NCBI GenBank assembly: GCA_009746045.1
Contig: RPFO01000111.1
Span: 75,001-139,000 of the forward strand
Length of the DNA: 64,000 bases
Direction: 5' to 3'
Source of the DNA: Mesostigma viride
Lineage: Eukaryota > Streptophyta > Mesostigmatophyceae > Mesostigmatales > Mesostigmataceae
Under the pieces are notes generated by a model, which saw only the letters and a list, made by a program, of their open reading frames with translations, was not told where the DNA came from and did not search any database. Shown here piece after piece: positions 1 through 58,559 of the stretch. Every line of letters begins with the position of its first letter. Positions within the stretch are counted from its first letter, which is position 1. Both the position numbers and the translations under genes were made by a program.

Positions 1-1564
1 GCCCACGCAGAGCGATGCCAACCCCCCCAAGCCGCTCACCCCCGAATACCTGGCCCGCTGGGCGGACGCATCTGCGCTTGTGGATGACGTGGTGCTCCCT
101 GGTGACGGATGGCTGCACCAAGTCCTCAAGGGCCAAACGCTGCGCATTGTCGACATGGATGGCAACCAGGCGGCCGACACGTTGCTGTACAACGCGCACG
201 ACCCGGCGGAGCGGTACGATGCCAACCTGACGCTGCGGCGGCAGGGCAACCTGTACCTGACCAAGGGCAGCGTGCTGCTCTCGCAGGAAGGGAACGTGCT
301 GGCCACCGTGGTGGATGACAATTGCGGCCGCCACGACACCATCGGCGGCGCGTGCTCGTGCGAGAGCAACCAGGTGCGCTACGACCTGCGCAAGCGACAC
401 ATGCACGCGTGCCGGCAGACGTTTGTGCTGCAGCTGGTGAAGGCGGCTGGCGCGATGGCCCTCAAGGGCCAGCCGCCGCTGGGCAAGCGCGACGTGGCGC
501 ACAACATCAACTTCTTCATGAATGGTGCGTGCGAGAGTCTTGGAACGCAACAACCCTTGAATGGGACAGGGATAGCAAAGCATCGAGCGACAGTCGGTAG
601 TGTTCTGCTGGCTAGAAGATGCAGTGGTGACTTGGCACACCCCTACAGCAGCATGGCCCCCAAAGGGTACCAGGGACACGGGCATGCCGTGACTGTGTGC
701 ATGGCAGCAGACGCCTGCCAAGCTTGTAGCACACCAGCTGAACGGTAGCACCGCTAGCCATGCCGTGCGTTAAAAACGTGCATGAGTTGCGCTATCCGTG
801 TCATGCGCTACCCACGTGCATGAGCTGCGCTGGCCGTGTCGTGCGCTAGCCATGTGCATGAGCTGCGCTGGCCGTGTCGTGCGCTAGCCATGTGCACGAG
901 CCGCGCCGGCCGTGTAGTACGCTAACCACGTGCATGAGCTGCGCTAGCCTTGTCGTGGGCTAACTTTCGCCCAGGCATGTGCTTAGTTCAGGTGGTCATA
1001 ATCTGTCTCATGTTAATTCCCATCTGCACCGTTCATTCCTGTTATTGTCAGCTTGCCATGGCTTACCCTCTACGGCTTCGCACGGCAAGCGCCCAAGCAC
1101 TGTAGTGACCAGTATAGTGACCAATTGGTCGAGTACAGCATACTACGGCTTCGCACGGCAACCGCCCAAGCACTGTAGTGACCAGTATAGTGACCAATTG
1201 GTCGAGTACAGCATACTACGGCTGCGCAAGGCAACCCCTTTAGGATTGGATTAGGAAAATGTTTCTTTGCTTTCACCCACCCTCCCATGCATGCTTGGCT
1301 GGCCCTTGCCCTTGCCCTTGCCCTTGCCCTTGCCCTTGCCTGCATGCATGCATCCCCTCTCGGCCCTTATCAGTCCCAGTGACCAAGGCGGGCGGCCTCA
1401 AGTTTGACGACGGCCTGAGCGCCCCCGGCCGCTACGTGGAGCTGCGTGCGGAGATGGACGTGCTGGTGCTTGTGTCCAACTGCCCGCAGCTCAACAACCC
1501 GTGCAACGGATGGAACCCGACGCCCCTGCGCATGCAGGTGCGCCCTGCGGCCAAGACCACGTGA
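1..1564 (+). CDS. Urea-carboxylase-associated protein, UAAP2/CgdB-like (DUF1989), 5'-partial
   Basis: Exon A is 1-524, read in frame from base 2 and open past the left edge, so the N-terminus is missing. Exon B is 1374-1564. The intron (525-1373) has a GTGCGT donor and a CAG acceptor; the split codon (g|tc) gives a continuous protein through [12 protein letters not shown]. Recognisable family blocks are [65 protein letters not shown] and [10 protein letters not shown]. In bacteria UAAP1 and UAAP2 form carboxyguanidine deiminase (CgdAB), converting carboxyguanidine to allophanate and ammonia. That role here is inferred from family membership plus the carboxylase and allophanate hydrolase genes about 38 kb away. 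Translation stops at 1564, just after CAG|GTGCGC (donor-like, 1535), so the true C-terminus could lie in a further exon. AATAAA occurs at 1668. Confidence 0.88.
778..967. repeat. 38-bp tandem repeat, 5 copies, inside the UAAP2 intron
   Basis: The anchor GTGCATGAG (GTGCACGAG in the fourth copy) recurs at 778, 816, 854, 892 and 930, a strict 38-bp period. Copies differ by a few substitutions. No coding role. Confidence 0.9.
1071..1232. repeat. 73-bp tandem duplication (two copies plus a partial) in the UAAP2 intron
   Basis: TACGGCT starts at 1071, 1144 and 1217. The first two units are almost identical and the third is cut short. A CCCTTG hexamer run (about 1303-1340) follows and may serve as the pyrimidine tract before the acceptor at 1373. 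Confidence 0.9.
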
Positions 1565-3110: not shown

Positions 3111-3125
3111 ATGGGTGCACACATT

Positions 3126-3460: not shown

Positions 3461-6400
3461 CTATCTAGCGTGCCTCCCGCGGGATTGCACACGCGGGCGC
3501 TTCCCCACTGGGGGGGGCTCGTTGTCCTCTATGACCTGGGCCCACTTGGCCTTGTCCATCATCTTCTTCCAAATCACGGAGAGGCCTAGGCCCCCCATGT
3601 CCTCTACTAGCTGTTCCTTGAAGGTGCGGGCCTTGCGGCGTCTAACATCACTGGGCCCAGCCCACGTCAGGAGGTGCCGGCCAGGCTGGGCTGGTCGCAG
3701 TCCTGCGGGGGGGCCACGTGAGGTGTCTACCTGGTTGGTGCGAGCTAGGTGCCCTACTAGCTGCAGGCGGCGTTGCTTAATTGTGCTGGTGATATAGGGC
3801 ATACCCTGGTACAGGTCCTCATTGCGGACATGAGCAGCATATCCTACTCTGAAAATGGAACGCAGCATGCTGGTGACCGCGCCGTCCAGCTTGCGGGCCA
3901 GGTCGGCGGTGAGGGTCCACGTCTCGGCGCCATACGTGAGAACAGGAAGGACGAGGACCTTGAACAGGTCCTGTTTCTCGATCTTGCCCAGGGGCTTGCG
4001 CCACAGGGCCCGGTACTGGCGTAAAGCGTGCCAGGCGAGGGAGATGCGGTGGTCCACATCAACCTCGCAGCTAGGGAGCAGGCTGCCCAGCAGCTTAACG
4101 CGGTCCCGATACAGGACTCGAGAGCCGTCTAGGAGATAGAGGGGCGGCGCTGGGTTGGTGAGCCCAACCGCCAGGGCCTCTGTCTTCTTGCTGACCTCAA
4201 GCCCCACTGCACGGGCCTCGAGAGCCAGGCAGTCAAGCCATGTCTGCACGTGCTCAGTGCCCTCGAAGAGGGTGGTGTCGTCTGCGTAAATGATGTCTGC
4301 TAGCCGAATCTCCGTGTCCGCACCGCCATGCCAGAATTTGTTAGCAACCTGCACTCCTGGTTCCCTGCCCACGATGCGGGCAAATCGCTTGCGCGCCTGA
4401 ATCATTACGTATTCGACAACAATAATGAACAGGTAGGGCGACAGCACGCAGCCCTGCCACACACCCTTCTGTAAAGGGCATGGGGGCGTGGTCCCGTAAG
4501 AAGTGCGCACCGAAGTGGTGGACCCTTCATACAGGTTGCGGATGACAGCAATCAGGGGGCGGGGGATCCGGAACAACTCGAGGATGTCCCAAAGCGCAGG
4601 CCAGAAAACCGAATCGAAGGCTTTGATGAAGTCCACCAGCACAAGGTGCAAAGGGGACGAAGGGTAGCGAAGAGCGCCTGTACTGTGTTGCGACCTGAAC
4701 GGAAGCCGTGCTGAGTCTCGCTGAGGTGACCGTCCAGGGCCGTGCGCAGGCGGTTCAGGATGAGCCGCATAAGAAGCTTGAGGGGGGCACTTTGAATGCA
4801 CACCCCTCTGTAGTTGCCGGGGTCGGCAGGCGACCCCTTGTTCTTGTACAGCATCGTGCGAAAACTGTGTTGCCAGGCCGCTGGAGGTGGTTGCGACGAC
4901 AGCAGAAGGTGGTTGCAGATGTCCCGGAAGAGCAGCATAACACCTGTGTCCTCGAATTCGGCTGCAAGTTTTACAACTGCGGCCGGAATCTCGTCAGAGC
5001 CGGTGGCTGCGTCATAACGCAGGCGCTGGACCGCCTCCGTGACCTCGCGAGAGGTGAAAGGAGGCATGTCAGACGGGTCGCCAAGTGGGCCGACCAGCGG
5101 GGGGACTAGGTAGTCCGCCGCTGACCTAGGCGGGGCCGGGGGCCCTGCGGGGCCGGCCAGGGCGGCCGGGCGGGCGGCGGCGGCTGGGAGCAGGGGTGGG
5201 GGCGGCGCAGCTGTCCCCACGACCTCGGCCGTGGCCGTGGCCCAGGTACGAAGCCGCTTGGCTGGGGCGCCGGGGACGTCGTGGCGGTGGGGCCGGCCGA
5301 GGCCGTCCGGGTGCCCGAGGCGCTTGTACCAGAACCAGGCCCCCTTGCCGTCGTGCTTCTGCTGGCAGCTGCGCAGGTCCTTGACCATCTGCTGAGCATC
5401 TGCCTTCTCAGCCTGCTCGTAGGCGGCCCTCAGAGCTGCTTGCAGCCCAGGTTTGGCGATCGGATCTCTGTTGCGGCGGAGCATCTGCCTGGCGGCGACC
5501 ACTGTCGGTGCGTGACGGTGGACAGCAAGCTGCCGACGCGGAGGCAAGGTGGGGAGGGTGCGGGCAGCCAGGCGATACTTGGCGGCGACACCACGGAGGA
5601 TCACTGAAATATCCCCCGGCGGCGGAATGGCGTGTAACTGCTGTCGGCTGCCCCCGGCGTCGAATACGGCCAGGAAATCATCCCTGTGCGACATAGCGGC
5701 CTGCTCTTCTGCTGACATCTTGTCGGCATCCTTCAGCACAATCCGGAGCACTTTCAGATCTGGCTGAGGTGCCAGCTGTCGCGACGGTTTCACCCCAGGA
5801 AACCGCAATCTGATGCGAGCGAGCACGAGACGATGATCAGATTCCACCGTGCTGACAGAATCTTGCAGGACGCGAGCATCGACAACTGAGGGGCGCTGAG
5901 CCCGACGTACGCAGACATAATCAAGGCACACCACCCGATCCGACGGCCCAAAAAAGGTGGCCAGCTGCTCAGCGGGGCGTGCGAAAGAAGCATTGCATGC
6001 AACCAGCGCAGATTCTGCCAGCAGATTCGCAAATAAAGGCGTGTTACCGTTGGCTGTCGTGTTGGTTGGGGAATACTGAGCGCCCCCAGTGCCAACTGGC
6101 AGCGTGGCGTTGGCGTCGAGCAGCATAACCAGGAAGTGCCGAGCTGGATGTTGGCCTCCTCCTCCTTGAGGGCGTCGAAGAAGGCCTCACGTTCCGCCTG
6201 AGCTCGACCCGCATGTGGTGCATATCCCACGATAACGGTTAGCGTGTGGTGTGAATGGCCCTCAGTGGCCGAAAAAGTGGCCACTAGCACACGCGGGGAC
6301 CGCAGCACGATGGACTGGAGCTGCTCTGATGCTGCCGGCGAGCACAAGAGGCCCACACCACCTTGGCCCGGCGCGTCGCCGCCACCATAGTGGAACCGCC

Positions 6401-6962
6401 AGCCTGCCCGCAGGTCGTCGACCAGCAGACCGTTGACCGCGTGCTGAGGGTCAACGGTGCGTCGGTGCTCCTGGACTCCAAGAACAGCGATCTTGTTGTC
6501 GGCGCACAGGGCGATCAGCTCGTCGACGCGTTGGCGTGCTGGGGTGCCGCCGCTCGTAGAAGGATCTGCAGGGAGGGTGCGCACGTTAAAACTTGCAATG
6601 CCAAGAATGGGCCGTTGCCCTATTAGCGGGGGGGTGGGGGTGGGGGTGGGGGTGGAGAAGGGTAGTGCTGGAGGTGGGGGTGGGGGTGGGGGGGGGGGGG
6701 GGGGGGGGGGGGGATTGGGGTTAATGCTTGTCAACGCATGGAGGCTTTCTTTCAGGACGGATATGCGTCGTCTCCGTCCTGGCTGGGGTCGCCGGCGTGT
6801 CGACTGGGCCTCATCCCGCTCAAGGCGGGCTAGGAGGCGTGTGAGGCTGGTAAATTGGCGGGAAGGTTGACCGTGGCGTGCCTGGCGACCTTGCATCCTG
6901 ATCATGCTCGCACGGTGCGACATGAGGATGGAAAGGGGCTTGTTTATAAAGGCTATGCCCAA
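3461..6962 (-). pseudogene. LINE A ORF2: AP endonuclease plus reverse transcriptase, frameshifted
   Basis: The N-terminal segment (6962-5790) has a poly-proline linker from the G-run at about 6676-6712, then endonuclease motifs SFNVRTL and VLGVQEHRR. Frame changes near 6130 to the segment 6126-4552, which has MLLDANATLPVG, SDHRLV, RYDAATGSDEIPAAVV, KNKGSPADPGNYRGV and QHGFRSGRNTV. Frame changes again near 4650 to 4801-3461, with VDFIKAFDSVFW, GVWQGCVLSPYLF, IIYADDTTLF, a thumb region (LTYGAETWTL) and a C-terminal tail with RRLQLVGHLART. Both breaks lie in otherwise well-conserved stretches, so they look like simple indels. The product would perform target-primed reverse transcription. The intact LINE B remnants align with the middle of this ORF. 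Confidence 0.85.
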
Positions 6963-6997
6963 AGCCTATTGTACCGCGAGGCCGCGAGGGTGTGCCC

Positions 6998-8260
6998 TTA
7001 CCGGGCGGCATCCATACCCGGGACGTGCGTACACGATGATGACGCAGCTGGGGCGGGCCTGGTACGGCCCGACTTGTGCCGCTTGTTAGGAGCCTGCGCC
7101 TCCGTGCGCTGGCCGTTGATGAATAGCACAGGGGTGTCGTGGACGAGGCGGACGTAGACCTTCTGGCGGTCGTGCCTGGCCTTGATCGCCACGTCGCTGC
7201 CCAGCAGACCATTCTTGATGACGAGCTGGGCCGGTGAGAGGAGGTCGTCGAGGCTCGGCGCGTTCTCCCGCCTAGGAGCTTGCGGGCCTGGAGGACCTTC
7301 ACCTTGCTGGCCACATTCGCAAAGGTTACCCGGATGGGGCCAGGCTGGCCCGCCATCCAGGCTGCCGACTCAATGCGGATGCGTTCGTTGCCCAGTTGCA
7401 GCCGGCCCACGATGAGGCTGTGGTACAGGCGTTGCGCTAGCATCAGGTCCGTTTCAGGCTGCTGCGCGACCTGAAAATACCGGACCACTATACTGCGTGA
7501 GCGCAGGTCCTCCTCGACAGCAGTCTTGTGGGCTGCAGCCCCCCTGCGTGCTGCATCTTCCATCAGGTTGGCAATGTCCGTCTGTTTTACCACGTTAGCA
7601 TAGCTGGTGGGTGCGGGGGCGGCTTGCTGGGGAGGTGTGGCCAGGGCGGCCTTGACCTCGGCAATGCTGGATTGGAGCGCAGCAGTGTCTTTACGGAGAG
7701 CGGTGGACAAGGTGCCGAGTTGGGCAGCCATGTCTGCGACTTTCTTATTGAGCTTGTGCAGGTCTGAGCACTTCCGGGGAAGCGTCAGGGGTGTTGGCGG
7801 TGCCGTGGTCGGCGTCCTCGAAAGCGGCAAAGAGTGCCCGGAGGCAGGGGGCCTGCGCGTGGCTCAGGAAAACAGAAAGTCGAAGCTCTGGCTCGTCCAT
7901 GACGGCAAGCTCGTCCACGGAAATGGTCTCGCCAAGCGTGCTAGAAAAATAGATCGGAGTTTTGTTGTCGTTCATGAGGTGCAGGATAGCCCGCGCCTCC
8001 ACGGCGGTAAGCGAAAAGAACCGGTGCTCGGCAACAACCTTGCCAGGCAGGAAGTCCGCTGGGTCAAACTCAGCGTCGGCGATGGCGTCGTCGTCGTCGT
8101 CGTCAAGGGGGTCGGTCTCACGGGAAACCTCGCTGGAAGAAGGAGCCGCAGGCGGAGGGATCTGGCTGTCCATCTCGTCGACGGGGCAGGGGCAATGCCG
8201 CTTAGACGAAACGTTAATGGCGGCATCAGCAGACGATGGCTGGGTCGCAATGGTGTCCAC
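6998..8260 (-). pseudogene. LINE A ORF1 (RNA-binding/coiled-coil protein), frameshifted
   Basis: Starts at an ATG at 8260 (MDTIATQPSS). The acidic N-terminus contains FFSLTAVEARAILHLM, matching the equivalent region of LINE D (EFFTMPVADVLQILK). After a frameshift near 7770 come a coiled-coil stretch (LNKKVADMAAQLGTLSTALR), SYANVVKQ, and a block with RSIVVRYFQ and GRLQLGNERIRIES. A second shift near 7265 leads to the C-terminus (AIKARHDRQKVYVRLVHDT) and a stop at 6998. This layout is typical of LINE ORF1 nucleic-acid chaperones. Confidence 0.75.
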
Positions 8261-11942: not shown

Positions 11943-12446
11943 TGTTGTGATATTGCAGATCTCGCAGTCACTACTTGAATTGGTACGGAATTTGGTACGC
12001 CGATATTTGGGCTATTGCGTGTCTGAACGTTGTCGGAATTTCAGGGGTGCGCAATCTGACTTTACTTCTTGCGTTTGTCAATATTGTCCGTTGGCTAGGG
12101 CTTATGTGGTCGAATCTCGGTGATGCTATTTTCGGTGGTGACGGCTTATGCGTTTGTGGTCCTGTAACGGTTGTGACTGCATGTTGGTTGGTTGGTACTC
12201 GGCCGGTGGTTTAATGTTTTGTGGGCGGCGCTGAATGGATCAGTGTAGCGCCGCAGGTCCTGTCACTACTGCTTGGCGTGCTAGGATGACAAAAGCCGAC
12301 AAAAGTGGTGCGAACGTAACATTGACGGTATTCCACTGTTAATGGCGTACGTGAGCTACAAAGAGGTCGGGGGCTTGTGCTGAGCGCGTCAGATTATTGA
12401 ATTTTCCGTCAAGAAATTTTCTATTCAATATCCATTTAATACAACA
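11943..12446 (+). repeat. 5' LTR
   Basis: 504 bp, TG...CA ends, with the same sequence as 18024-18523 except for four extra bases near 12180. It should contain the promoter and the R/U5 region; I cannot place the transcription start. The bases just inside (TGTACTAGAAGTGGG) would be the primer-binding site, but I do not recognise the tRNA. Confidence 0.95.
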
Positions 12447-12485
12447 TGTACTAGAAGTGGGTCGTTGCTTGCAATCTGGTGGAAA

Positions 12486-31340: not shown

Positions 31341-31341
31341 T

Positions 31342-37680: not shown

Positions 37681-37945
37681 CCACTCTCTCTCCCGTCTTT
37701 GGACTGCCATGCAGGACAAGACGCGGTGGAAGAGGATTGTCAAGGCGCACACGCCCGACCCTGTGGGCAAGCCCCCTCCCCCCAAGCGGAGGCGGCGTTT
37801 TGATGAGTAGTGTAGTTAGGATTTTCTAGACTAGATAGCTTAGAGTTAGGGTAGTTCGATTACGCGGCTTCCTCCACCCCATCCATCATGGAATATGTGC
37901 TACATGATCTCCCAACGGAGGCATGTTATAGTTTAATTTAATTTT
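37681..37945 (+). mobile_element. 5'-truncated LINE 3' end, tandem to LINE E
   Basis: Begins CCACTCTCTCTCCCGTCTTT, equivalent to about 37446 of LINE E, and repeats the terminal coding piece (PPPPKRR), 3' UTR, a variant hairpin (CTCCCAACGGAGG) and a TTTAATTTAATTTTAATA tail. Confidence 0.8.
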
Positions 37946-38495: not shown

Positions 38496-38912
38496 CCCTG
38501 ACAAGAGGCATATGGTTTTTAATACATTCTGAGCTGCAACCTGCAGGTGGGGGAATGTAAAATGCCACCTACTCTGGGTGCACAAGGTGACCATGGCCAT
38601 TAATGCATGTATACACTTCTGAAAACCGCTAACTAGAAAGCCAAAAAAGCCAAACACTAGTACCGCCTATATTCTATTATCAGTTATTTACGCAAACATA
38701 AGCTGGCCTCACATACCGGCATACACGAAGGGACAAAGGCACAATGAGCGTGCATCCCCTTTTCACCATGGTAGTCCACCGGTGTCCATTAGCTACAGTA
38801 TGACACTGGCTACTCCATACACTGCTGTTGTTTCAAAATTGCAGCATGTGCCTCTGCGCACCTGCTGGTTACGCCACCTTCATTCTTTCTTGGTAACCAT
38901 GCCTGTCATTAT

Positions 38913-43800: not shown

Positions 43801-46800
43801 TTCGCGCCTATGCTGCATAGGGTTGCCCACTGATGGTCCTCACCCCTCCCCCTGGAGCTGGTGCCTGTATGGTAGTTGTACGGTGGATGTCTCCCCTAAA
43901 GCACCGTACTCAAATGCCCCACATGTACTGGCTACTAGAGCAACTACATGGCTACCATGGCTTACATGCCCTGTACTGGCCCCAATTCGCATGCCTCATA
44001 CTACATGCCCGATGGCGTGGACCGCGAATCCAACGGCACCACTGGAAACAGCTCTAGCTTTGCAATCCCAAAAGTGGCCCATGTCTGTGCCGTGGTTACT
44101 TGCGCTGCGCCCCTCCATGCTCTAACCTCGCCCTGGCACGCTCCAACCTGCCCCCGACGCCTCCGCCCCCCCTCCAGGTGACCGTGACTGCTCTTCACAG
44201 CGCCGTAACCAAAAGGTGGTGGAGGAGGCGCCGGCCCCCCGCATCTCCGAGGCCACGCGCACGCAGCTGTTCCAGGCGGCACGCGCGATGGGGATGGCGA
44301 CGGAGCCGCCGTACTGCAGCGCGGGCACGGTGGAGTTTGTGTACGACGAGGACGCGGATGAGTTCCACTTCTTGGAGGTCAACACGCGGCTGCAGGTGGG
44401 TGGGACAGGGGAAACGGAATGGGGTGGGATAGGGGGAACGGAATGGGGTGGGGTAGGTGCAGCAGTAGGGGGTTGGGTGCGGGAGTGCGGGCAGAAGGGT
44501 GGGTGTGGTGGGTGCACAAGGGGGGTTGATGCGGGTGGCTTGGCGGGCAAGCAGGTGCACGCCTTGCCGATGGCAGGAGGCTGGGTTTTTGTGTGTTGAT
44601 ATTAGGTGAGACACCCAAGTATGGGGCCAGGGGGGGGGGGGAGGGAGAGAGAGAGAGAGAGGGGGGGGGGGGGGGGGGAGGTCAGGCTGGCGGTCAGGTG
44701 GGCAGAATGGATTATTGTTTGATGACCAGGCTTGGAATGGTTATCTTAGTCCGGTTTGTAGTCAAAATACTTGTCACACGGAGCGGATGGGCAGGTGGAT
44801 TGTTGTAGGTGTGCTGGCGTGCTGTACCTGTGGCCCCAGTCGCACAGACGGGGTGATGCCATGCCTGAAGGTAGCACCGGCGCATGTGGTAAGGCACGTC
44901 ATGTCACTTGCCGGGCGTGTGCGCGGCCACCCTGCCTGCCGTGTGCTCGGGGTTTTGTGACCTAACCAGTGGCAGACATGTGGCACATCACAACATATAC
45001 CTCCACTCACAGCATCCACTCACAGCAGCCGGCGCCCGCTCACAGTGCGCTCTCCGTTGTGATAGACTTCGCCACACGAACCCTCACGGTTTGTGATAGA
45101 CTTTGCCACACGAGCCTTCATGGTCTTACACGGCATGGTTGATCGGTCTATTCGCCCCCTCTCAACTGGCATATTCCAAAACAGCCTTATATGAAGATGT
45201 TCCTTTTGGAATCTCCTCTTCTCTCCGCCTCTGAAAGCCACCCTCGCAACCGTTCGCTCACCCTGCTTTCCTGTCCGACTTGGTAGTATCCGCCTGCCCA
45301 CTCTCCTTGCGGATACCAATCGTAATGTGTGCTGGCGTGCAGGTTGAGCACGGCGTGACGGAGCTGTTGACGGGCATCGACATCGTTGAGTGGATGGTGC
45401 GCGGCGCGGCAGGCGACCTGCCCCCCCTGCACACGCTCCCTGTGCGCAGCGAGGGCCACGCGATCCAGGCACGCATCTACGCGGAAGACCCTGCGAAGAA
45501 CTTCCAGCCGTCGTCGGGCGAGCTGTCCCACGTGGCCTTCCCGACCGCACCGGAAGTGCGCGTGGACAGCTGGATTGAGTCCGGTACGGAGGTCAGCCCC
45601 TACTACGACCCGCTGCTGGCCAAGGTGATGGTCAAGGCGGACAGCAGGGATGCGGCGGTGGCGGCGCTGGTGCGCGCGTTGTCGGATGTCAGCATCCAGG
45701 GCATCGAGTGCAATGTCGAGTACCTCAAGCACGTGGTCACTTGTGCTGATTTCGTCACGGGGCGCGTGTCCACGCGCATGCTCAACGAGCTGGTGTACCT
45801 ACCGGCCACGATCAACGTGGTGGCGGCGGGCAGTTTTACAACAGTGCAGGACTACCCCGGCCGGCTGGGGTATTGGGACATCGGCGTGCCCCCCAGTGGC
45901 CCCATGGACCACCTGGCGTTCCGGCTGGGCAACCGCTGCCTGGGCAACGAGGAGGGCGCGCCTGGTTTGGAGATGACCATGCAGGTGAGCGGGGCGACGG
46001 GGGTGCAGAAGCTGGGTGTAGGACTGGCCAAGTGCGGCCAAATCTGTGCTGCATTTGTCGAAAATAAAGCTGCTGACAGTGGGAAAGATGGGATCGTCGA
46101 CCGTCTGCCAAAGAGGGCTTGACGAGGGAATGTTGTGTGCATCGCAGTTGGCATGGAAGTGCACATGTGCAGAAAGCACTAGGTGGCAGCAGCAGGGGGT
46201 AGACAGGCGATCGGGGGTGGGCGGACGAGATACTTGGCTGCTGAGTGGGGCTCAAGCCTGTTGTTGTCAAGGGCAGGGAAACGCACTTGCATCCTGCTGG
46301 TGTTCGAGCCATGCCATTCATGGGCCAGAAACAACCTCCTCCGTTGACCGTGCATCCATCCCTTGCAGTGCTTGTCTCATCGGTGCACACCCTCTGGGAC
46401 CCGACGGTCTGAATGCGCAGCTCCTTGCTCAAGGGGCAATCCAGGCGCTCCGCGAGCCTCTCCAGTGTGCTCTATTGTTGTGCAGTCCGCGGTATCAGGG
46501 ACTCAGGGCATGTGATGGCCTTTACATGCTGCAAGGGGCAATGTCGCCAACTCTTATGCCCCTATCTGGTGGTTGCACCCATCTTTCATCATTGAAATCT
46601 CCCTCTTTGCAGGGCCCCACGCTGCGCTTTAACCTCCCTGCCACGATCTGCCTGGCCGGCGCCGTTGCCCCCGCCAAGCTGGGCCCACACGGGGGCCCCC
46701 AACGCGAAGTTGCCACGTACACGCCCACAGCGGTGGCCGCGGGCGAGACGCTGACCATCGGCCGCGTGCCTGGCCCTGGCATCCGCGCGTACCTGCTGTT

Positions 46801-49800
46801 TGGTGGTGGTGGCCTGGACGTGCCATCGTACTACGGCAGCAAGTCCACGTTCACACTGGGCAAGTTTGGGGGCCACGCGGGGCGCACGCTGCTGCCAGGG
46901 GACGTGCTGCGGCTGGAGGCGGGCAAGAAGGGGAACCCCGCTCTGTCGGGGGCGGTGGGGGTCGCGGGGGCGGCGCGGGTAGTCAGCGGGGGCCTGCCGC
47001 TGGGCACGCGGCTAGATGAGCGGCTGATCCCTCAGCTCACCACGAGCTGGGAGGTGGGCGTGCTGCCGGGCCCTCACTGCGCGCCGGACTTCTTCCTGCC
47101 GGAGGATATTGAGATGCTTCACAACACCGAGTGGAAGACGCACTACAACAGGTAGGTGGTTGGAGCACTACAGCAGGTGGGTGGGTGGAGCACTACAGCA
47201 GGTGGGTGGTTGGAGCACTACAGCAGGTGGGTGGTTGGAGCACTACACCAGGTGGGTGGTTGGAGCACTACAGCAGGTGGGTGGTTGGAGCACTACAGCA
47301 GGTGGGTGGTTGGAGCACTACAGCAGGCGGGTGGTTGGAGCACTACAGCAGGTGGGTGGTTGGAGCACTACAGCAGGCGGGTGGTTGGAGCACTACAGCA
47401 GGTGGGTGGTTGGAGCACTACAGCAGGTGGGTGGTTGGAGCACTACAGCAGGCGGGTGGTTGGAGCACTACAGCAGGCGGGTGGTTGGAGCACTACAGCA
47501 GGTGGGTGGGTGGAGCACTACAGCAGGCGGGTGGGTGGAGCACTACAGCAGGTGGGTGGGTGGAGCACTACAGCAGGCGGGTGGTTGGAGCACTACAGCA
47601 GGTGGGTGGTTGGAGCACTACAGCAGGCGGGTGGTTGGAGCACTACAGCAGGTGGGTGGTTGGAGCACTACAGCAGGTGGGTGGTTGGAGCACTACAGCA
47701 GGTGGGTGGTTGGAGCACTACAGCAGGTGGGTGGTTGGAGCACTACAGCAGGTGGGTGGTTGGAGCACTACAGCAGGTGGGTGGTTGGAGCACTACAGCA
47801 GGTGGGTGGGTGGAGCACTACAGCAGGCGGGTGGTTGGAGCACTACAACAGGTGGGTGGTTGGAGCACTACAGCAGGTGGGTGGTTGGAGCACTACAGCA
47901 GGTGGGTGGTTGGAGCACTACAGCAGGTGGGTGGTTGGAGCACTACAGCAGGTGGGTGGTTGGAGCACTACAGCAGATGGGTGGTTGGAGCACTACAGCA
48001 GGTGGGTGGTTGGAGCACTACAGCAGGTGGGTGGGTGGAGCACTACAGCAGGTGGGTGGTTGGAGCACTACAGCAGGTGGGTGGTTGGAGCACTACACCA
48101 GGTGGATGGTTGGAGCACTACAGCAGGTGGGTGGTTGGAGCACTACAGCAGGTGGGTGGTTGGAGCACTACAGCAGGTGGGTGGTTGGTGGGTGGTTGGA
48201 GCACTACACCAGGTGGGTGGTTGGAGCACTACAGCAGGTGGGTGGTTGGAGCACTACAGCAGGTGGGTGGTTGGAGCACTACAGCAGGCGGGTGGTTGGA
48301 GCACTACAGCAGGTGGGTGGTTGGAGCACTACAGCAGGCGGGTGGGTGGAGCACTACAGCAGGCGGGTGGGTGGAGCACTACAGCAGGCGGGTGGTTGGA
48401 GCACTACAGCAGGTGGGTGGTTGGAGCACTACAGCAGGTGGGTGGGTGGAGCACTACAGCAGGTGGGTGGGTGGAGCACTACAGCAGGCGGGTGGGTGGA
48501 GCACTACAGCAGGTGGGTGGTTGGAGCACTACAGCAGGTGGGTGGTTGGAGCACTACAGCAGGCGGGTGGTTGGAGCACTACAGCAGGTGGGTGGTTGGA
48601 GCACTACAGCAGGCGGGTGGTTGGAGCACTACAGCAGGTGGGTGGTTGGAGCACTACAGCAGGCGGGTGGTTGGAGCACTACAGCAGGTGGGTGGTTGGA
48701 GCACTACAGCAGGCGGGTGGTTGGAGCACTACAGCAGGTGGGTGGGTGGAGCACTACAGCAGGCGGGTGGTTGGAGCACTACAGCAGGCGGGTGGTTGGA
48801 GCACTACAGCAGGTGGGTGGTTGGAGCACTACAGCAGGTGGGTGGGTGGAGCACTACAGCAGGTGGGTGGTTGGAGCACTACAGCAGGTGGGTGGGTGGA
48901 GCACTACAGCAGGCGGGTGGGTGGATGGGTGGGTGGTACGTTCCCTTCACCATCGGTGTGTGCGATCAGCAGGAACACACATGCATACAGCACCTTAGCA
49001 TAACAGGTTGAGGCAGTGACCAGGTCTGCTGGGGTCTTAACAGGTGGTACCTTTTTGGCAAGGATTATGTGGGTTTGTTTTGGTAGGTACTTGTGGGTAG
49101 TTATCCTGGGATCACGCCGTTTGCGCTACAAGCAACCATGGGTGATGTCGCCACAGGCGCAGCAGGGGCAGGGGCCAAGGGCAGCGTTGCCAGTGCCGAG
49201 ATGAAGCATGGTCTTTGCACAACTGCTGCGGGTCACTATACTAGCTGCTGCCCTAGCGGGTCGCTATACTAGCTGCTGCCCTCGCTAGGTATTGGGACTG
49301 GAGCTGGTCTCGCCCACCCATGGCGTAGAGAAGGGGACCTTGGGTCAGCACCACATTGAGTTTGAGTGTGCAATTTTTCTGTACGGTTATTGGCATGCCT
49401 GCCTGCCCACACCACTGGCACACCTCGCTCTTACCGCTTGCCTTGCCCCTAATGCGGCCCTTGCCCCCCCCCTCCCCCCGCCCTCCTTTGACCAGCGCGC
49501 GTACCGGCGTGCGGCTCATCGGCCCCAAGCCCAAGTGGGCGCGCCCCAGCGGCGGCGAGGCCGGCCTGCACCCCTCCAACACTCACGACGTCGCGTACGC
49601 GATTGGGTCCGTCTGCTTCACGGGGGACATGCCCATCTTTTTGGGCCACGATGGGCCCAGTTTGGGAGGCTTTGCGTGCCCCTGCGTGATCGCCAAGGCC
49701 GAGATGTGGAAGCTGGGACAGCTGGCGCCCAACGACACGGTCAAGCTCGTGCCCATGGCGCACGGGGCCGCGAATGCGCTGGAGAAGAGGCAGGAGGCCG

Positions 49801-52800
49801 CGCTTGCGTCGCTGCAGGTGGGTGGGCGAGCATACATGTGGGGCTGCAGGTGGGTGGATGGGGCTGCAGGTGGGTGGTATCATGAGCCCCGGTGGCATCG
49901 CTGCGGATGGGTGGACCAGTGAAGGGTTGGTGGCAGTGCGGCGGGTGGGTGGCGGAGCTATCGGTAGGTGGAGGTGTGTCGGTGGGAGCGCGACTGGTGG
50001 GCGGCCTGCTGCTGGTGGGCGGCCTCGTTGGGTGGGGCTGGCGTGACAGAAGGGGGTCGATCTCTACAGCTGGCGCGTTCATTATCAAACAACATGTTAG
50101 TTGCTGCACACGTCACCGACCTACCCGCTCACGTACATGGACACCTCCCCCCCCCCCTATCCTGCAGGTGCCTGAGGTGGAGGATCTTGGCGAGGGCATC
50201 ACCGCCAGCACACACGCGTCCACCTCATGGCCACTGGCATCAATCACCGCCGTGGGAGGCGACCACCTCAACCCAGTGCTGGGGGCGGTGGAGGCGGATG
50301 CGAGCAAGGGCAGCCCCGGCGCGCTGTATCGCCGCGCGGGGGACAAGAATATCCTCGTCGAGTACGGACCGAACGTGCTGGACGTGGACCTGCGCTTCCG
50401 CGTGCACGCGCTCATGGCGGCGATCAAGGCCAACGAGCCGCCGGGCATCATCGACATGACACCGGGCATTCGATCTGTCATGGTGTGTGGGCGGGGGAAC
50501 GGGACGCGCCTTCGCTTGCCCTGCTATCATTCCTTGTCGTGCTCAAAGCGTGCGTTCAAGTAGAAGATGGTCAGACATGTCCCAAGGAGAGCGATCAAGA
50601 ATAGGATAAGGTATTTACACCTAATAGGTAAATATATATGTATACTATAAGGGGGGTATTTTACATAAATCTGATAGAGCGTGTTGGTGCATGGTCGGGA
50701 TTCGGAGCGCATGCAAGGCGTACGCGCTACAATCACTCATGGCATGTGGAGTGGGTGAAGGGGATGTACTGGAGGAAAAGGGGGGTTCGGCGGTTTGCTG
50801 CACTCAGCTGCTGTGCTGGGAGGGCAATCGACAACAGCACGCTCATACGACAACAGCACGCTCATATGCACAGGGGTGCCAACCTGCATGTATCTGTCTG
50901 TATGCGCTACGTAGCAAGGGAACGAGGAGTATTCTGTATGCGCTACGTAGCAAGGGAACGAGGAGTATTCTGTATGCGCTACGTAGCAAGGGAACGAGGA
51001 GTGTTCTGTATGCGCTACGTAGCAAGGGAACGAGGAGTATTCTGTATGCGCTACGTAGCAAGGGAACGAGGAGTATTCTGTATGCGCTACGTAGCAAGGG
51101 AACGAGGAGTATTCTGTATGCGCTACGTAGCAAGGGAACGAGGAGTGTTCTGTCTGCGCTACGTAGCAAGGGAACGAGGAGTATTCTGTATGCGCTACGT
51201 AGCAAGGGAACGAGGAGTGTTCTGTATGCGCTACGCAGCAAGGGAACGAGGAGTATTCTGTCTGCGCTACGTAGCAAGGGAACGAGGAGTATTCTGTATG
51301 CGCTACGTAGCAAGGGAACGAGGAGTATTCTGTATGCGCTACGTAGCAAGGGAACGAGGAGTATTCTGTATGCGCTACGTAGCAAGGGAACGAGGAGTAT
51401 TCTGTATGCGCTGCGTAGCAAGGGAACGAGGAGTATTCTGTCTGCGCTACGTAGCAAGGGAACGAGGAGTATTCTGTATGCGCTACGTAGCAAGGGAACG
51501 AGGAGTGTTCTGTATGCGCTACGTAGCAAGGGAACGAGGAGTGTTCTGTATGCGCTACGTAGCAAGGGAACGAGGAGTGTTCTGTATGCACTACGTAGCA
51601 AGGGAACGAGGAGTGTTCTGTATGCGCTACGTAGCAAGGGAACGAGGAGTGTTCTGTATGCGCTACGTAGCAAGGGAACGAGGAGTGTTCTGTATGCGCT
51701 ACGTAGCAAGGGAACGAGGAGTGTTCTGTATGCACTACGTAGCAAGGGAACGAGGAGTGTTCTGTATGCGCTACGTAGCAAGGGAACGAGGAGTGTTCTG
51801 TATGCGCTACGTAGCAAGGGAACGAGGAGTGTTCTGTATGCGCTACGTAGCAAGGGAACGAGGAGTATTCTGTATGCGCTACGTAGCAAGGGAACGAGGA
51901 GTGTTCTGTATGCGCTACGCAGCAAGGGAACGAGGAGTATTCTGTCTGCGCTACGTAGCAAGGGAACGAGGAGTATTCTGTCTGCGCTACGTAGCAAGGG
52001 AACGAGGAGTATTCTGTATGCGCTGCGTAGCAAGGGAACGAGGAGTGTTCTGTCTGCGCTACGTAGCAAGGGAACGAGGAGTATTCTGTATGCGCTACGT
52101 AGCAAGGGAACGAGGAGTGTTCTGTATGCACTACGTAGCAAGGGAACGAGGAGTATTCTGTATGCGCTACGTAGCAAGGGAACGAGGAGTATTCTGTATG
52201 CGCTACGTAGCAAGGGAACGAGGAGTATTCTGTCTGCGCTACGTAGCAAGGGAACGAGGAGTGTTCTGTATGCGCTACGTAGCAAGGGAACGAGGAGTAT
52301 TCTGTATGCGCTACGTAGCAAGGGAACGAGGAGTGTTCTGTATGCGCTACGTAGCAAGGGAACGAGGAGTGTTCTGTATGCGCTACGTAGCAAGGGAACG
52401 AGGAGTATTCTGTATGCGCTACGTAGCAAGGGAACGAGGAGTATTCTGTATGCGCTACGTAGCAAGGGAACGAGGAGTATTCTGTATGCGCTACGTAGCA
52501 AGGGAACGAGGAGTGTTCTGTATGCGCTACGTAGCAAGGGAACGAGGAGTGTTCTGTATGCGCTACGTAGCAAGGGAACGAGGAGTGTTCTGTATGCGCT
52601 ACGTAGCAAGGGAACGAGGAGTATTCTGTATGCACTACGTAGCAAGGGAACGAGGAGTATTCTGTATGCGCTACGTAGCAAGGGAACGAGGAGTATTCTG
52701 TATGCGCTACGTAGCAAGGGAACGAGGAGTGTTCTGTATGCGCTACGTAGCAAGGGAACGAGGAGTGTTCTGTATGCGCTACGTAGCAAGGGAACGAGGA

Positions 52801-55800
52801 GTGTTCTGTATGCGCTACGTAGCAAGGGAACGAGGAGTATTCTGTCTGCGCTACGTAGCAAGGGAACGAGGAGTATTCTGTCTGCGCTACGTAGCAAGGG
52901 AACGAGGAGTATTCTGTATGCGCTACGTAGCAAGGGAACGAGGAGTATTCTGTCTGCGCTACGTAGCAAGGGAACGAGGAGTATTCTGTATGCGCTACGT
53001 AGCAAGGGAACGAGGAGTATTCTGTATGCGCTACGTAGCAAGGGAACGAGGAGTATTCTGTCTGCGCTACGTAGCAAGGGAACGAGGAGTATTCTGTATG
53101 CGCTACGTAGCAAGGGAACGAGGAGTGTTCTGTATGCACTACGTAGCAAGGGAACGAGGAGTATTCTGTATGCGCTGCGTAGCAAGGGAACGAGGAGTAT
53201 TCTGTATGCGCTACGTAGCAAGGGAACGAGGAGTATTCTGTATGCGCTACGTAGCAAGGGAACGAGGAGTATTCTGTATGCGCTACGTAGCAAGGGAACG
53301 AGGAGTGTTCTGTATGCGCTACGTAGCAAGGGAACGAGGAGTATTCTGTATGCACTACGTAGCAAGGGAACGAGGAGTATTCTATATGCGCTACGTAGCA
53401 AGGGAACGAGGAGTATTGTATATGCGCTACGTAGCAAGGGAACGAGGAGTATTCTGTATGCGCTACGTAGCAAGGGAACGAGGAGTATTCTGTATGCGCT
53501 ACGTAGCAAGGGAACGAGGAGTATTCTATATGCGCTGCGTAGCAAGGGAACGAGGAGTATTCTGTATGCGCTACGTAGCAAGGGAACGAGGAGTATTCTG
53601 TATGCGCTACGTAGCAAGGGAACGAGGAGTATTCTGTATGCGCTACGTAGCAAGGGAACGAGGAGTATTCTGTATGCGCTACGTAGCAAGGGAACGAGGA
53701 GTGTTCTGTATGCGCTACGTAGCAAGGGAACGAGGAGTGTTCTGTATGCGCTACGTAGCAAGGGAACGAGGAGTATTCTGTATGCGCTACGTAGCAAGGG
53801 AACGAGGAGTATTCTGTATGCGCTACGTAGCAAGGGAACGAGGAGTATTCTGTATGCGCTACGTAGCAAGGGAACGAGGAGTATTCTGTATGCGCTACGT
53901 AGCAAGGGAACGAGGAGTGTTCTGTATGCGCTACGTAGCAAGGGAACGAGGAGTATTCTGTATGCGCTACGTAGCAAGGGAACGAGGAGTGTTCTGTATG
54001 CGCTACGTAGCAAGGGAACGAGGAGTGTTCTGTATGCGCTACGTAGCAAGGGAACGAGGAGTGTTCTGTATGCGCTACGTAGCAAGGGAACGAGGAGTAT
54101 TCTGTATGCACTACGTAGCAAGGGAACGAGGAGTATTCTGTATGCGCTACGTAGCAAGGGAACGAGGAGTATTCTGTATGCGCTACGTAGCAAGGGAACG
54201 AGGAGTATTCTGTATGCGCTACGTAGCAAGGGAACGAGGAGTATTCTGTATGCACTACGTAGCAAGGGAACGAGGAGTATTCTGTATGCGCTACGTAGCA
54301 AGGGAACGAGGAGTATTCTGTATGCGCTACGTAGCAAGGGAACGAGGAGTGTTCTGTATGCGCTACGTAGCAAGGGAACGAGGAGTGTTCTGTATGCGCT
54401 ACGTAGCAAGGGAACGAGGAGTGTTCTGTATGCGCTACGTAGCAAGGGAACGAGGAGTGTTCTGTATGCGCTACGTAGCAAGGGAACGAGGAGTATTCTG
54501 TATGCGCTACGTAGCAAGGGAACGAGGAGTATTCTGTATGCGCTACGTAGCAAGGGAACGAGGAGTGTTCTGTATGCGCTACGTAGCAAGGGAACGAGGA
54601 GTGTTCTGTATGCGCTACGTAGCAAGGGAACGAGGAGTATTCTGTATGCGCTACGTAGCAAGGGAACGAGGAGTGTTCTGTATGCGCTACGTAGCAAGGG
54701 AACGAGGAGTGTTCTGTATGCGCTACGTAGCAAGGGAACGAGGAGTGTTCTGTATGCGCTACGTAGCAAGGGAACGAGGAGTATTCTGTATGCGCTACGT
54801 AGCAAGGGAACGAGGAGTGTTCTGTCTGCGCTACGTAGCAAGGGAACGAGGAGTATTCTGTATGCGCTACGTAGCAAGGGAACGAGGAGTATTCTGTATG
54901 CGCTACGTAGCAAGGGAACGAGGAGTATTCTGTATGCGCTACGTAGCAAGGGAACGAGGAGTATTCTGTATGCGCTACGTAGCAAGGGAACGAGGAGTAT
55001 TCTGTATGCGCTGCGTAGCAAGGGAACGAGGAGTGTTCTGTATGCGCTACGTAGCAAGGGAACGAGGAGTGTTCTGTATGCGCTACGTAGCAAGGGAACG
55101 AGGAGTGTTCTGTATGCGCTACGTAGCAAGGGAACGAGGAGTGTTCTGTATGCGCTGCGTAGCAAGGGAACGAGGAGTGTTCTGTATGCGCTACGTAGCA
55201 AGGGAACGAGGAGTGTTCTGTATGCGCTACGTAGCAAGGGAACGAGGAGTATTCTGTATGCGCTACGTAGCAAGGGAACGAGGAGTATTCTGTATGCGCT
55301 ACGTAGCAAGGGAACGAGGAGTGTTCTGTATGCGCTACGTAGCAAGGGAACGAGGAGTATTCTGTATGCGCTACGTAGCAAGGGAACGAGGAGTGTTCTG
55401 TATGCGCTACGTAGCAAGGGAACGAGGAGTGTTCTGTATGCGCTACGTAGCAAGGGAACGAGGAGTGTTCTGTATGCGCTACGTAGCAAGGGAACGAGGA
55501 GTATTCTGTATGCGCTACGTAGCAAGGGAACGAGGAGTATTCTGTATGCGCTACGTAGCAAGGGAACGAGGAGTATTCTGTATGCGCTACGTAGCAAGGG
55601 AACGAGGAGTATTCTGTATGCGCTACGTAGCAAGGGAACGAGGAGTGTTCTGTATGCGCTGCGTAGCAAGGGAACGAGGAGTGTTCTGTATGCGCTGCGT
55701 AGCAAGGGAACGAGGAGTATTCTGTATGCGCTGCGTAGCAAGGGAACGAGGAGTATTCTGTATGCGCTACGTAGCAAGGGAACGAGGAGTATTCTGTATG

Positions 55801-58559
55801 CGCTACGTAGCAAGGGAACGAGGAGTATTCTGTATGCGCTACGTAGCAAGGGAACGAGGAGTGTTCTGTATGCGCTACGTAGCAAGGGAACGAGGAGTGT
55901 TCTGTATGCGCTACGTAGCAAGGGAACGAGGAGTGTTCTGTATGCGCTACGTAGCAAGGGAACGAGGAGTATTCTGTATGCGCTACGTAGCAAGGGAACG
56001 AGGAGTATTCTGTATGCGCTGCGTAGCAAGGGAACGAGGAGTGTTCGCTGGAAGGTGCCTGGCAGCCCAGGCGCGTGCATGTGAATGGAAATGCCCGACC
56101 AGGCCATCAAACTTAATTTTGCCGATTCTCTAGTAGAGTAGGTCAGCCATTTGGAACCAGCGCACATGTCTGCCGTGTAGCTGACCTCTCGTGGTAATGC
56201 ATGGGGAGCAAGTGCTGACCTGGCCTCTCGGCCTCTTGCCTATGTGTCTGTGTGCCACTCACCGTAAATCACCTGCTTGCTGGCACCGGTATGACGCAAA
56301 ACGCCGCCTCAACACCCCCAGATCCACTACGACTGCCGCGTGACCCCCGTGGGCACCCTGCTGTCCCACCTGGCAGCCGTGGAGGCCACCCTGCCGCCGG
56401 TGGACGACATGGAGGTTCCCCAGCGCATCGTGCGGCTCCCCATCAGCTGGAACGACCCCGCGGTCCAGCTCTGCATCTCCAAGTACATGCAGAGTGTGCG
56501 CGACGACGCGCCCTGGTGCCCCTCCAACATCGAGTTCATCCGGCGCATCAACGGGCTGGACTCCATCGAGCGCGTGCGTGAGATCTTCTTCGCCGCGCGG
56601 TGGCTGGTCATGGGGCTGGGCGATGTCTACCTGGGCGCCCCCCTTGCGGTCGCATTGGACCCGCGCCACCGGCTGGTGACCACCAAGTACAACCCAGTCC
56701 GCACGTGGACCCCTGACAACGTGGTGGGCATCGGCGGCTGCTACCTGTGCATCTATGGGATGGAGGGGCCTGGGGGGTACCAGCTGGTGGGGCGCACGGT
56801 GCCGGTGTGGAGCCGGTACCGTTCGACCGGCGACTTTGCGCCAGGCAAGCCGTGGCTGCTGCGCTTCTTCGACGTGCTCGAGTTCTACGAGGTAAGGCCG
56901 ATAGAGGATGGAGGTCTACGAGGTACAGACGGTAGAGGATGGAGTTCTACGAGGTGAGGCCGATAGAGGATGGGCGAGATACGGCCGATAGAGGACGGAG
57001 TTCTACGATATACAGCCGGTATAGGATGGAGTTCTACGAGGTACAGCCGGTAGAGGATGGAGTTCCGCGAGGTACGGCAGGCAGAAGATAGCCTGGTGAA
57101 ATACGCGCTACAGTGCCTGCGCTGTACTTATTGCGTGCGCTATAGGGCTCGAGTATTGCAAGGTTTGCTGAGAATCGCTTAGTACAAAATGCGCTACGGC
57201 ATTCGCACTATACCTGTTGTGTTCACTATTATACTCGACTCCTACAAGGTATGTGTCGAGGGCGAGTAGTGTCCACGCTAGTTGGGGATAGACCTGTTGG
57301 GTGCGCTGTGTTGGGTGCGCTTTGGTCCCTGGGCTCCGGTACACGCACTATCATGTTTGTGTGTGTGGAGGGTGGGGGGGCTGGTGTGTGTGTGGGGGGG
57401 GGGGGGGGGGGATGCAAAGGCAGGGGGCCTTCATAAGAAAAGCACGTAGGGCCCCCTTAGCAACCTAACGGTCTTAACTTTGATACGCGTGTGTGTCTGT
57501 TCGAGCTCAAAGAGGGGGGAGTCCTCGCGAATAAAAGAGAGGGCGATAGCTGCATGAACTGGAGGGGGCGGCTGGCAGCGACAAAATTACTATTGGGACA
57601 AGAACGGCACTAATGGGACAAGAATGGGTGGCTCGCAGGCGCATGATTCTCTGAAAACAGCTTTGCACCCTCCCTCCCTCCCTCCCTCCCTCCCTCCCTC
57701 CCTCCCTCCCTCCCTCCCTCCCTCCCTCCCTCCCTCCCTCCCTCCCTCCTCCCTCCCTCCCTCCTCCCTCCCTCCTCCCTCCCTCCCTCCCTCCCTCCTC
57801 CCTCCCTCCCTCCCTCCCTCCCTCCCTCCTCCCTCCCTCCCTCCCTCCCTCCTCCCTCCCTCCCTCCCTCCCTCGGGCGCATAACATGGCCTCACCGCGT
57901 TTTATTCACCCATCACTCATCCACCCCCTGCCACCATCACGCCTTTCCCCCCTTGCCCCCATTGCCCCCCTTACCCCCCTTGCCCCCCTTGCCCCCCTTT
58001 CCCCCCTTTCCCCCCTTTCCCCCCTTGCCCCCCTTTGCCCCCCTTTCCCCGCCTCCATCAGGTGACCCACGAGGAGCTGATGACGTTTCGCAGCGGAGTC
58101 GCCAATGGCACCATCAAGCTGGACGTGAAGGAGACGACATTCAAGCTCAAGGACTACCACGCGTTCCTGGCGAGCATCAAGGAGGAGTCAGCCGCGTTCC
58201 GCTCCAAGCGCGAGATAGCCTTCAACGAGGAGCGCGAGCGGTGGGTGGCCAGCGGCGAGTTTGCCGCGGTGGAGGAGATGGCGGATGCGGCGGCAGGTGG
58301 CAAGGCACCCAGCACGGAGGTGGACGTCCCTGAGGGTGGCGCGCTGGTGGCCTCGCCCATGGTGGCCAATGTGTGGAAGGTGGACGTGACGGTGGGCCAG
58401 GTGGTGGAGGAGGGCAGCTCGCTGGTAGTGCTGGAGGCGATGAAGATGGAGACAAGCATCCCTGCGACCATGTCGGGCGTGGTGGTCAAGGTGCTCTGTG
58501 CGGCGGGCAGCATGGTGCAGCAAGGCACACCACTCGTAGTGCTGGGCCCAGCCCAGTGA
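40832..58559 (+). CDS. DUR1: Urea carboxylase / guanidine carboxylase (biotin-dependent), 11 exons
   Basis: Exons: 40832-40855, 41019-41333, 41536-41751, 43072-43195, 44178-44395, 45343-45984, 46613-47151, 49496-49817, 50168-50482, 56322-56891, 58062-58559. All ten introns are GT-AG, phases agree, and the sum is 1,260 codons plus stop, close to the usual ~1,200. Biotin carboxylase (about 1-450): [16 protein letters not shown]-grasp loop AGGGGIGM (164-171), [14 protein letters not shown] (293-306). KipA-like carboxyltransferase part from about 455 ([20 protein letters not shown]). KipI-like part from about 840 ([44 protein letters not shown]). Biotinyl Lys1223 in EAMKME. It ATP-dependently carboxylates urea to allophanate, or guanidine to carboxyguanidine; motifs I can read do not separate these. 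Exon 1 (MEGKLFKK) is the least certain: it has a weak donor but gives the expected [11 protein letters not shown]. Introns are repeat-filled. Confidence 0.93.
41791..42125. repeat. ACGCC/ACGCA pentamer array in carboxylase intron 3
   Basis: About 67 pentamers: ATGCC/ACGCC, then ACGCA, ACGCT, ACGCC, ACGCA, ACGCC blocks, in homogeneous sub-runs. It starts 40 bases after the donor at 41752. Because 5 is not a multiple of 3, stop-free frames appear on both strands; none is a gene. Confidence 0.95.
42161..42490. repeat. 35-bp minisatellite, 9 copies plus partial, in carboxylase intron 3
   Basis: AGACGCATGC recurs every 35 bases from 42161 to 42476. Units carry GCATGC and GGGGGGCCACCA with one- or two-base variants. 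The rest of the intron (42491-43071) is C-rich and ends in a long pyrimidine tract before the acceptor at 43071. Confidence 0.95.
43291..43520. repeat. (GTGGGT)n array in carboxylase intron 4
   Basis: About 38 hexamers starting about 95 bases after the donor (43196). Each unit resembles the GTGGGT form of a 5' splice site used by introns 5 and 8 of the same gene. Intron 4 otherwise shows nothing. Confidence 0.95.
44396..45342 (+). other. Carboxylase intron 5 with G-rich repeats
   Basis: Begins GTGGGTGGG. Contains a duplicated GGAATGGGGTGGG block (about 44417 and 44441), a GA/G-rich run (44627-44682), and a 40-bp duplication around 45060-45120 (GACTT-GCCACACGA-CC motif twice). No exon-like sequence. 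Confidence 0.8.
47140..48930 (+). repeat. 25-bp minisatellite, about 71 copies, spanning the exon 7 / intron 7 junction
   Basis: The unit reads GCACTACAGCAG then GTGGGTGGTTGGA. The first unit is the real exon end (GCACTACAACAG) and donor (GTAGGTGGTTGGA), so the array is made of copies of the 5' splice junction. Variants are GCGGG for GTGGG and GGTGG for GGTTGG; one partial unit lies at about 48180-48197. The unit contains no stop in any plus frame, which produces three overlapping 615-629-codon frames. The acceptor is at 49495. 48931-49495 has a small duplicated CTATACTAGCTGCTGCCCT. Confidence 0.96.
49808..49882 (+). repeat. Triplicated 5' splice junction at the start of carboxylase intron 8
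   Basis: GCTGCAG|GTGGGTGG is the true exon 8/intron 8 junction (49811-49825). The same 15 bases recur at about 49844 and 49864. The intron runs to 50167. Confidence 0.9.
50901..56046. repeat. 36-bp minisatellite, about 143 copies, in carboxylase intron 9
   Basis: The unit begins TATGCGCTACGTAGC and continues AAGGGAACGAGGAGTATTCTG, perfectly in register over 5.1 kb. Frequent variants are ATTC/GTTC, TATG/TCTG, CTACGT/CTGCGT/CTACGC and GCG/GCA. Since 36 is a multiple of 3 and the unit lacks stops in four frames, frames of 1,172-1,831 codons arise on both strands; they are not proteins. Variant order suggests block duplications within the array. Confidence 0.97.
56880..57085 (+). repeat. About 31-bp degenerate repeat seeded by the exon 10 / intron 10 junction
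   Basis: GAGTTCTACGAG|GTAAGG (exon end at 56891) is followed by copies GGTCTACGAG|GTACAG, AGTTCTACGAG|GTGAGG, AGTTCTACGATATACAG, AGTTCTACGAG|GTACAG and AGTTCCGCGAG|GTACGG, each joined by TAGAGGATGG. So 5-6 imperfect copies of the donor lie within 200 bases. Confidence 0.93.
57400..58055. repeat. Simple repeats of carboxylase intron 10: G-run, (CCCT)n and CCCCCTT runs
   Basis: A G-run at 57396-57410, (CCCT)n with CTC interruptions at about 57669-57873, and CCCCCTT repeats at about 57946-58050. The last two form a very long pyrimidine tract before the acceptor at 58061. Confidence 0.92.

Follow-up and report, generated by a model that had tools for sequence, protein, structure and literature searches.

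A gene set most likely for a bacterial-type guanidine-assimilation pathway in the streptophyte alga Mesostigma viride

The stretch of DNA analysed here, which we call the window, comprises 64,000 nt (positions 75001-139000 of contig C2222) of the 440-Mb assembly of Mesostigma viride, a single-celled alga of the land-plant lineage that NCBI places in the Streptophyta. Three genes form the cluster: the 3′ part of a gene in which CgdA (UAAP1) is fused to CgdB (UAAP2), on the forward strand; an allophanate hydrolase gene, on the minus strand; and a carboxylase gene, on the forward strand. The hydrolase and carboxylase genes are a divergent, head-to-head pair whose start codons are about 470 bp apart. 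An earlier reading of the window, made from its letters alone (the sequence-only reading), had claimed a UAAP2/CgdB gene, an allophanate hydrolase and a urea/guanidine-type carboxylase within 60 kb of a eukaryotic genome. All three are present, with profile scores far above chance, and the family assignments are borne out by matches over cut-off to TIGR03424, TIGR02713 and TIGR02712, respectively; introns, retroelements and the name of the organism bear out a eukaryotic locus. The identities of the genes, and the fusion of CgdA with CgdB, are near certain.

The fusion gene is open at the left edge of the window. One exon, at 2-524 on the forward strand, encodes residues ~260-433 of a 496-aa protein, and a GT-AG intron separates it from the last exon, at 1374-1564, whose stop codon is at 1562-1564. 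This fragment alone scores 305.7 bits against TIGR03424, the UAAP2 model (cut-off 284.7). A protein search for longer forms gave P0241, of 496 aa, which is identical across the entire window part, ends in the same residues and was treated by the search as encoded by the window itself. The UAAP2/CgdB half of P0241 (residues 284-489) matches TIGR03424 with 470.5 bits, and its UAAP1/CgdA half matches TIGR03425 with 477.2 bits (cut-off 205.95; best stretch, residues 15-244). CgdA and CgdB are, on these predicted sequences, one polypeptide in Mesostigma. The UAAP1/CgdA partner that the sequence-only reading expected to the left of the window or elsewhere does exist: it makes up the N-terminal half of the protein that also contains UAAP2. 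It is known from the protein record of P0241; to the left of the window, C2222:70001-75000 is exactly 5,000 N, the last of which abuts window position 1. The CgdA half of the gene would lie in that stretch. A separate UAAP1 gene had also been considered; a genome-wide search with PF09347, to which stretches of N are closed, matched the two UAAP2 exons in the window and nothing else, and the idea was dropped because the UAAP1 domain turned up inside P0241.

The CgdA half keeps all 14 positions with a conservation of 95% or more among 76 other rows (the fused row P0256, being too short, was left out), and the CgdB half keeps 45 of 45 such positions among 94 other rows, which argues against decay of the fusion gene. 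A structure model of the fusion protein has a pLDDT of 80.7 and a pTM of 0.83 and says nothing about its substrate; its five best matches among solved structures are DUF1989 chains, each covering about half of the model.

Further CgdA–CgdB fusions, with the same domain order of UAAP1 followed by UAAP2, are present in public sets, most of them unnamed (among others, P0242-P0248). None was seen in 80 named bacterial loci, where the 58 CgdA and 60 CgdB ORFs, spread over 59 loci, are all separate by our criterion. In the trees, the Mesostigma halves group with unfused proteins and not with the other public fusions: the CgdA half is paired with a proteobacterial protein that is unfused (support 97/90), and the CgdB half groups with unfused proteins (support 99 in a quick tree). 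Since both halves stand beside unfused proteins and apart from the other fusions, the simplest reading of the trees is that the fusion in Mesostigma would have arisen independently. A second fused protein from a eukaryote protein set, P0246 (s1_g911.t1), has a CgdB half that lies on a short branch of 0.17 with bacterial rows around it (0.57 for its CgdA half); given the short branch of that CgdB half, P0246 may be a contamination or a recent transfer.

The allophanate hydrolase gene is a single exon at 38913-40364 on the minus strand. It matches TIGR02713 with 557.9 bits (cut-off 511.05) over profile positions 2-416 of 563, that is, over the amidase part only, and no C-terminal domain was seen by eye in the minus-strand frames of 36300-39100. 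Two bacterial relatives in the same tree group are also short (463-464 aa). In a tree of 63 bacterial rows and the alga, the hydrolase belongs to a group of six rows whose other members are L005, L006, L007, L008 and L010, all of them from loci with Cgd genes and a carboxylase with Asp at the specificity site discussed below (support 94, unstarred). A separate group (support 96) holds 14 hydrolases from loci whose carboxylase has Asn at that site and one from an Asp locus.

The carboxylase gene extends from 40832 to 58559 on the forward strand in 11 exons, with GT-AG borders that were picked by eye and by reading frame. A first coding exon of eight codons (MEGKLFKK, 40832-40855) was matched to the public protein P0121. 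It is followed by exon 1, where the biotin carboxylase domain begins (41019-41333), exons 2 (41536-41751), 3 (43072-43195), 4 (44178-44395), 5 (45343-45984) and 6 (46613-47151), exon 7 with the substrate-discriminating site (49496-49817), exon 8 (50168-50482), exon 9 with the conserved Asp equivalent to Asp1584 of Kluyveromyces lactis (56322-56891), and exon 10 with the biotinyl domain (EAMKM) and the stop codon (58062-58559). A single open frame runs across the exons; two stops inside the genome profile matches fall beyond the donors of exons 2 and 6. The product matches TIGR02712, which covers the urea carboxylase family in the wide sense, with 1701 bits over the full-length model (cut-off 1303.85). 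The spliced carboxylase is 100% identical over 1,252 residues to P0121, a protein of 1,260 residues from the public set Mesvir1, which is a Mesostigma viride gene set as read from its name. As to a second carboxylase, profile positions 450-1048, the carboxyltransferase part, match only C2222 among the 28 of 38 first-look candidates that were scored; the remaining matches of the carboxylase profile in the genome are biotin-carboxylase or biotinyl domains.

Two introns of this gene hold large repeat arrays. A 25-bp minisatellite of about 71 copies occupies intron 6 (TRF, 47140-48925, forward strand); the array begins within the final bases of exon 6, and its unit looks like the splice donor region at the exon 6/intron 6 border, with 48 exact CAGGTGGGTGG in 1,786 bp. 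The sequence of the public protein agrees with splicing from the first donor at exon 6, ahead of the donor-like copies. Intron 7 has two additional donor-like copies, at 49844 and 49864. The 36-bp minisatellite of intron 8 (50897-56046, forward strand; 143 copies, 97% matches) is open for about 1,800 codons in several frames, but it is intronic and not a gene.

Retroelements lie between the fusion gene and the hydrolase gene. By Pfam, there are the remains of a non-LTR retroelement at 3461-7863 on the minus strand (RVT_1, with an endonuclease match just under cut-off), a Copia-like element at 12384-17608 on the forward strand (zinc knuckle and RVT_2), and a second reverse-transcriptase element at 34904-36627 on the forward strand (RVT_1 match at 36064-36624), whose ORF from 34904 has no Pfam match and resembles the ORF of the first element by eye only. 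The Pfam scan covered 20 other ORFs, 17 between the CgdB and hydrolase genes and three to the right of the carboxylase. Five, all between CgdB and the hydrolase, have a retroelement domain (three RVT_1, one of them under cut-off, one RVT_2 and one zinc knuckle); two more have matches under cut-off, to an endonuclease and to a zinc-finger PR-domain; and 13 of the 20 gave no Pfam match. A short or intron-rich gene may lie between or beside the genes of the cluster. Rfam gave no riboswitch match in the 64-kb window; a guanidine riboswitch is not expected in a nuclear genome.

With retroelements and large minisatellites filling the locus, and with listed relatives that are bacterial where they are named, one could suppose that the cluster is a bacterial contamination or a transferred fragment in decay. 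This is very improbable: two of the three genes have GT-AG introns, the carboxylase exons make one open frame, the contig is 905 kb long, the protein is present in the public Mesostigma set, and the conserved residues are intact in both Cgd halves. Contamination in particular was rejected on the introns, the length of the contig and the match to the public protein.

According to Palatinszky et al. (PMC11410670), a guanidine carboxylase needs Asp at the positions equivalent to both 1584 and 1330 of the K. lactis enzyme, and urea carboxylases have Asn at the latter, the specificity site, according to a review (PMC12186494). Our sample for this rule consisted of 80 bacterial loci, the best of 582 confirmed, with up to 8 kb of flank for each. 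Cgd neighbours are found within about 8 kb in 58 of the 62 Asp-type loci, as against 1 of the 18 Asn-type loci, and all four Asp loci that lack them are shorter than 12 kb and cut by a contig end. Guanidine-I riboswitches were matched by Rfam in five of seven Asp loci vs. one of seven Asn loci, these 14 of the 80 loci having been picked by hand. The rule, of which Schneider 2020 and Sinn 2021 are said to be the sources, predicts Cgd neighbours well in these bacteria, with L014 and L056 as exceptions. L014, from a Hyphomicrobium MAG, is the sole Asn-type carboxylase of the 18 with CgdA and CgdB as neighbours. L056, from the Moraxellaceae, is an Asn-type locus with guanidine-I and guanidine-II riboswitch matches in the same 19.6 kb. 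Two Asn-type rows from the Actinomycetota, L075 and L076, are nested among Asp-type rows.

The sequence-only reading had proposed a look at the active site, and the outcome is divided. The equivalent of Asp1584 is kept in the alga's carboxylase. At the equivalent of K. lactis Asn1330, which is Asp in guanidine carboxylases, both the guanidine-type Asp and the urea-type Asn are absent; the codon there is TGC (49614-49616, forward strand), which encodes Cys733 of P0121. A Cys at this site occurs in none of the 80 bacterial loci and in none of the 119 listed closest relatives (the best 120 of 7,999 scored). A change from Asp (GAC) or Asn (AAC) to this Cys codon takes two base changes, so a single sequencing error is an unlikely source of it; the public protein P0121 has the same Cys, its assembly not being necessarily independent. 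Because of this Cys, the predicted enzyme meets neither strict class: by the letter of the rule, it is neither a guanidine nor a urea carboxylase.

Among 34 diagnostic positions, the alga's carboxylase matches the Asp type at 25 and the Asn type at four, and five match neither. The listed closest relatives are Asp-type in 118 of 119 cases and Asn-type in one (best 120 of 7,999 scored). In a tree of 107 rows, it joins seven Asp-type proteins (support 81, unstarred). A grouping of the alga with nine of the 15 rows of the main Asn clade was rejected (p-AU 0.012) in a test on 41 of the 107 rows, for a group named after the larger tree had been seen and among rows that include no chlorophyte or fungal stand-alone carboxylases. 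Asn is also found outside the main Asn clade, in L014, L075, L076 and P0189, which suggests that the residue at 1330 has changed more than once. By descent, the carboxylase would belong on the guanidine side, its finer place in the tree being weakly supported (81). The earlier claim of a guanidine-type carboxylase is therefore upheld in one respect and not in the other: like the hydrolase, the enzyme groups with Cgd-containing loci and away from the main urea-type clade, but the Asp1330 rule goes against the claim, the residue being Cys. A plain urea-type carboxylase was rejected, as the site is not Asn and the grouping with main-clade Asn rows failed in a tree that holds no chlorophyte sequence. 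A bacterial guanidine-pathway origin of the gene set is likely. In their trees, the three genes do not share a sister group, so that a single donor operon is not demonstrated.

What, then, of urea? Two models of urease alpha (TIGR01792, and PF00449 with E values up to 1) gave no match in the genome. Searches of this type did find every one of the ten larger carboxylase exons, the shortest of about 41 codons, but would pass over a urease that is encoded by smaller exons or falls in an assembly gap; the controls of the urease searches were bacterial and archaeal, none of them from a genome rich in introns. As no urease was found, the carboxylase may be needed for urea, and may be the alga's only route for it. 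This weakens the earlier argument, by which the breakdown of urea could not account for the cluster. In four green algae, a carboxylase and an amidase occur without urease, and the two genes are near each other in three of them (PMC3073912). That gene order and that missing urease would fit an ordinary urea carboxylase/allophanate hydrolase pair, as in Chlamydomonas and Chlorella, with CgdAB nearby by chance. We consider this improbable. A eukaryote source or name appears for none of the 119 listed closest carboxylases (many of them nameless; best 120 of 7,999), nearly all of which are of the Asp type; the alga's own residue is not Asn; and the rejected grouping with main-clade Asn rows, from a tree without chlorophyte sequences, also speaks against it. 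Moreover, the conserved CgdAB would have no known use, for we know of no place for a carboxyguanidine deiminase in urea breakdown.

More serious, given that no urease and only one carboxylase were found, is a pathway for two substrates. The Cys enzyme would take both urea and guanidine; allophanate derived from urea would pass directly to the hydrolase, and carboxyguanidine would reach it by way of the fused deiminase. One gene bearing a carboxyltransferase part in the genome (28 of 38 candidates scored), no match to urease alpha with two models from a kind of search that does recover the carboxylase exons, a specificity site of neither type, and a well-conserved deiminase are all as this arrangement would have them. 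We nevertheless rate it unlikely, as we know of no measured example of a Cys at this carboxylase site, and the search would have overlooked a urease gene that falls in a gap or has very small exons.

We favour, as somewhat better than an even prospect, a bacterial-type guanidine carboxylase pathway that would have been gained by gene transfer in the Mesostigma lineage and then made eukaryotic. The remodelling would comprise the introns, the absence of a riboswitch, the head-to-head gene pair and the fusion of CgdA to CgdB. In the proposed route, the biotin carboxylase would add CO2 to guanidine at the expense of ATP. The fused CgdA–CgdB would then turn the unstable carboxyguanidine into allophanate with the release of one ammonia, as its family and its conserved residues suggest, and the amidase-type allophanate hydrolase would, by its family, convert allophanate to two ammonia and CO2. 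On balance, one guanidine would yield three ammonia. The role of the pathway could be nitrogen supply, or the disposal of guanidine made by plants and algae themselves. Since a conserved deiminase has no place that we know of in urea breakdown, a role in guanidine use is the best-supported reading. That guanidine is the physiological substrate we regard as probable, and no higher, because of the Cys at the specificity site; the carboxylase may also take urea. It is tempting to go further and to propose that the carboxylase here belongs to a third class, the Cys type, which takes urea as well as guanidine and works together with a self-made CgdA–CgdB fusion; a single transferred pathway would then replace urease and recycle the guanidine of the plant lineage. 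This we offer as a doubtful but conceivable extension.

Plant and algal homoarginine-6-hydroxylases release guanidine, and plants have been judged not to recover guanidine nitrogen efficiently (PMC11018352). The pathways for guanidine degradation in the literature consulted are described from bacteria, and among the literature matches listed, no title or abstract opening speaks of an alga that degrades guanidine; the 20 listed of 463 matches on related subjects include none that contains Mesostigma. The locus most likely encodes a pathway by which an alga assimilates guanidine as bacteria do. With a complete set of these genes in a streptophyte alga, guanidine would count among the metabolites usable by a eukaryote, and the Mesostigma carboxylase offers a natural Cys variant for testing the choice between guanidine and urea in these carboxylases.

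To our knowledge, yeast has no Cgd partner. The urea amidolyase of K. lactis (PDB 3va7/5i8i) has in common with the Mesostigma carboxylase the order of the carboxylase domains and Asp1584; it has Asn1330 where Mesostigma has Cys, and its carboxylase is fused to the hydrolase, whereas the two are separate in Mesostigma. The DUR1/DUR2 genes of Chlamydomonas, Volvox and Chlorella are closer in this respect, being, like those of Mesostigma, separate carboxylase and amidase genes close together in genomes where no urease was found. In the available portion of the paper on them, however, CgdAB is not mentioned (PMC3073912), and Mesostigma has it. With the bacterial guanidine pathway (Gca, CgdA, CgdB and AtzF), Mesostigma shares all four protein families, and in the trees its carboxylase and hydrolase fall with their counterparts from loci that contain Cgd genes. 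It differs from that pathway in that its genes are eukaryotic, split by introns and without a riboswitch match in the window, in that CgdA is fused to CgdB, and in that Cys stands in place of Asp at the specificity site.
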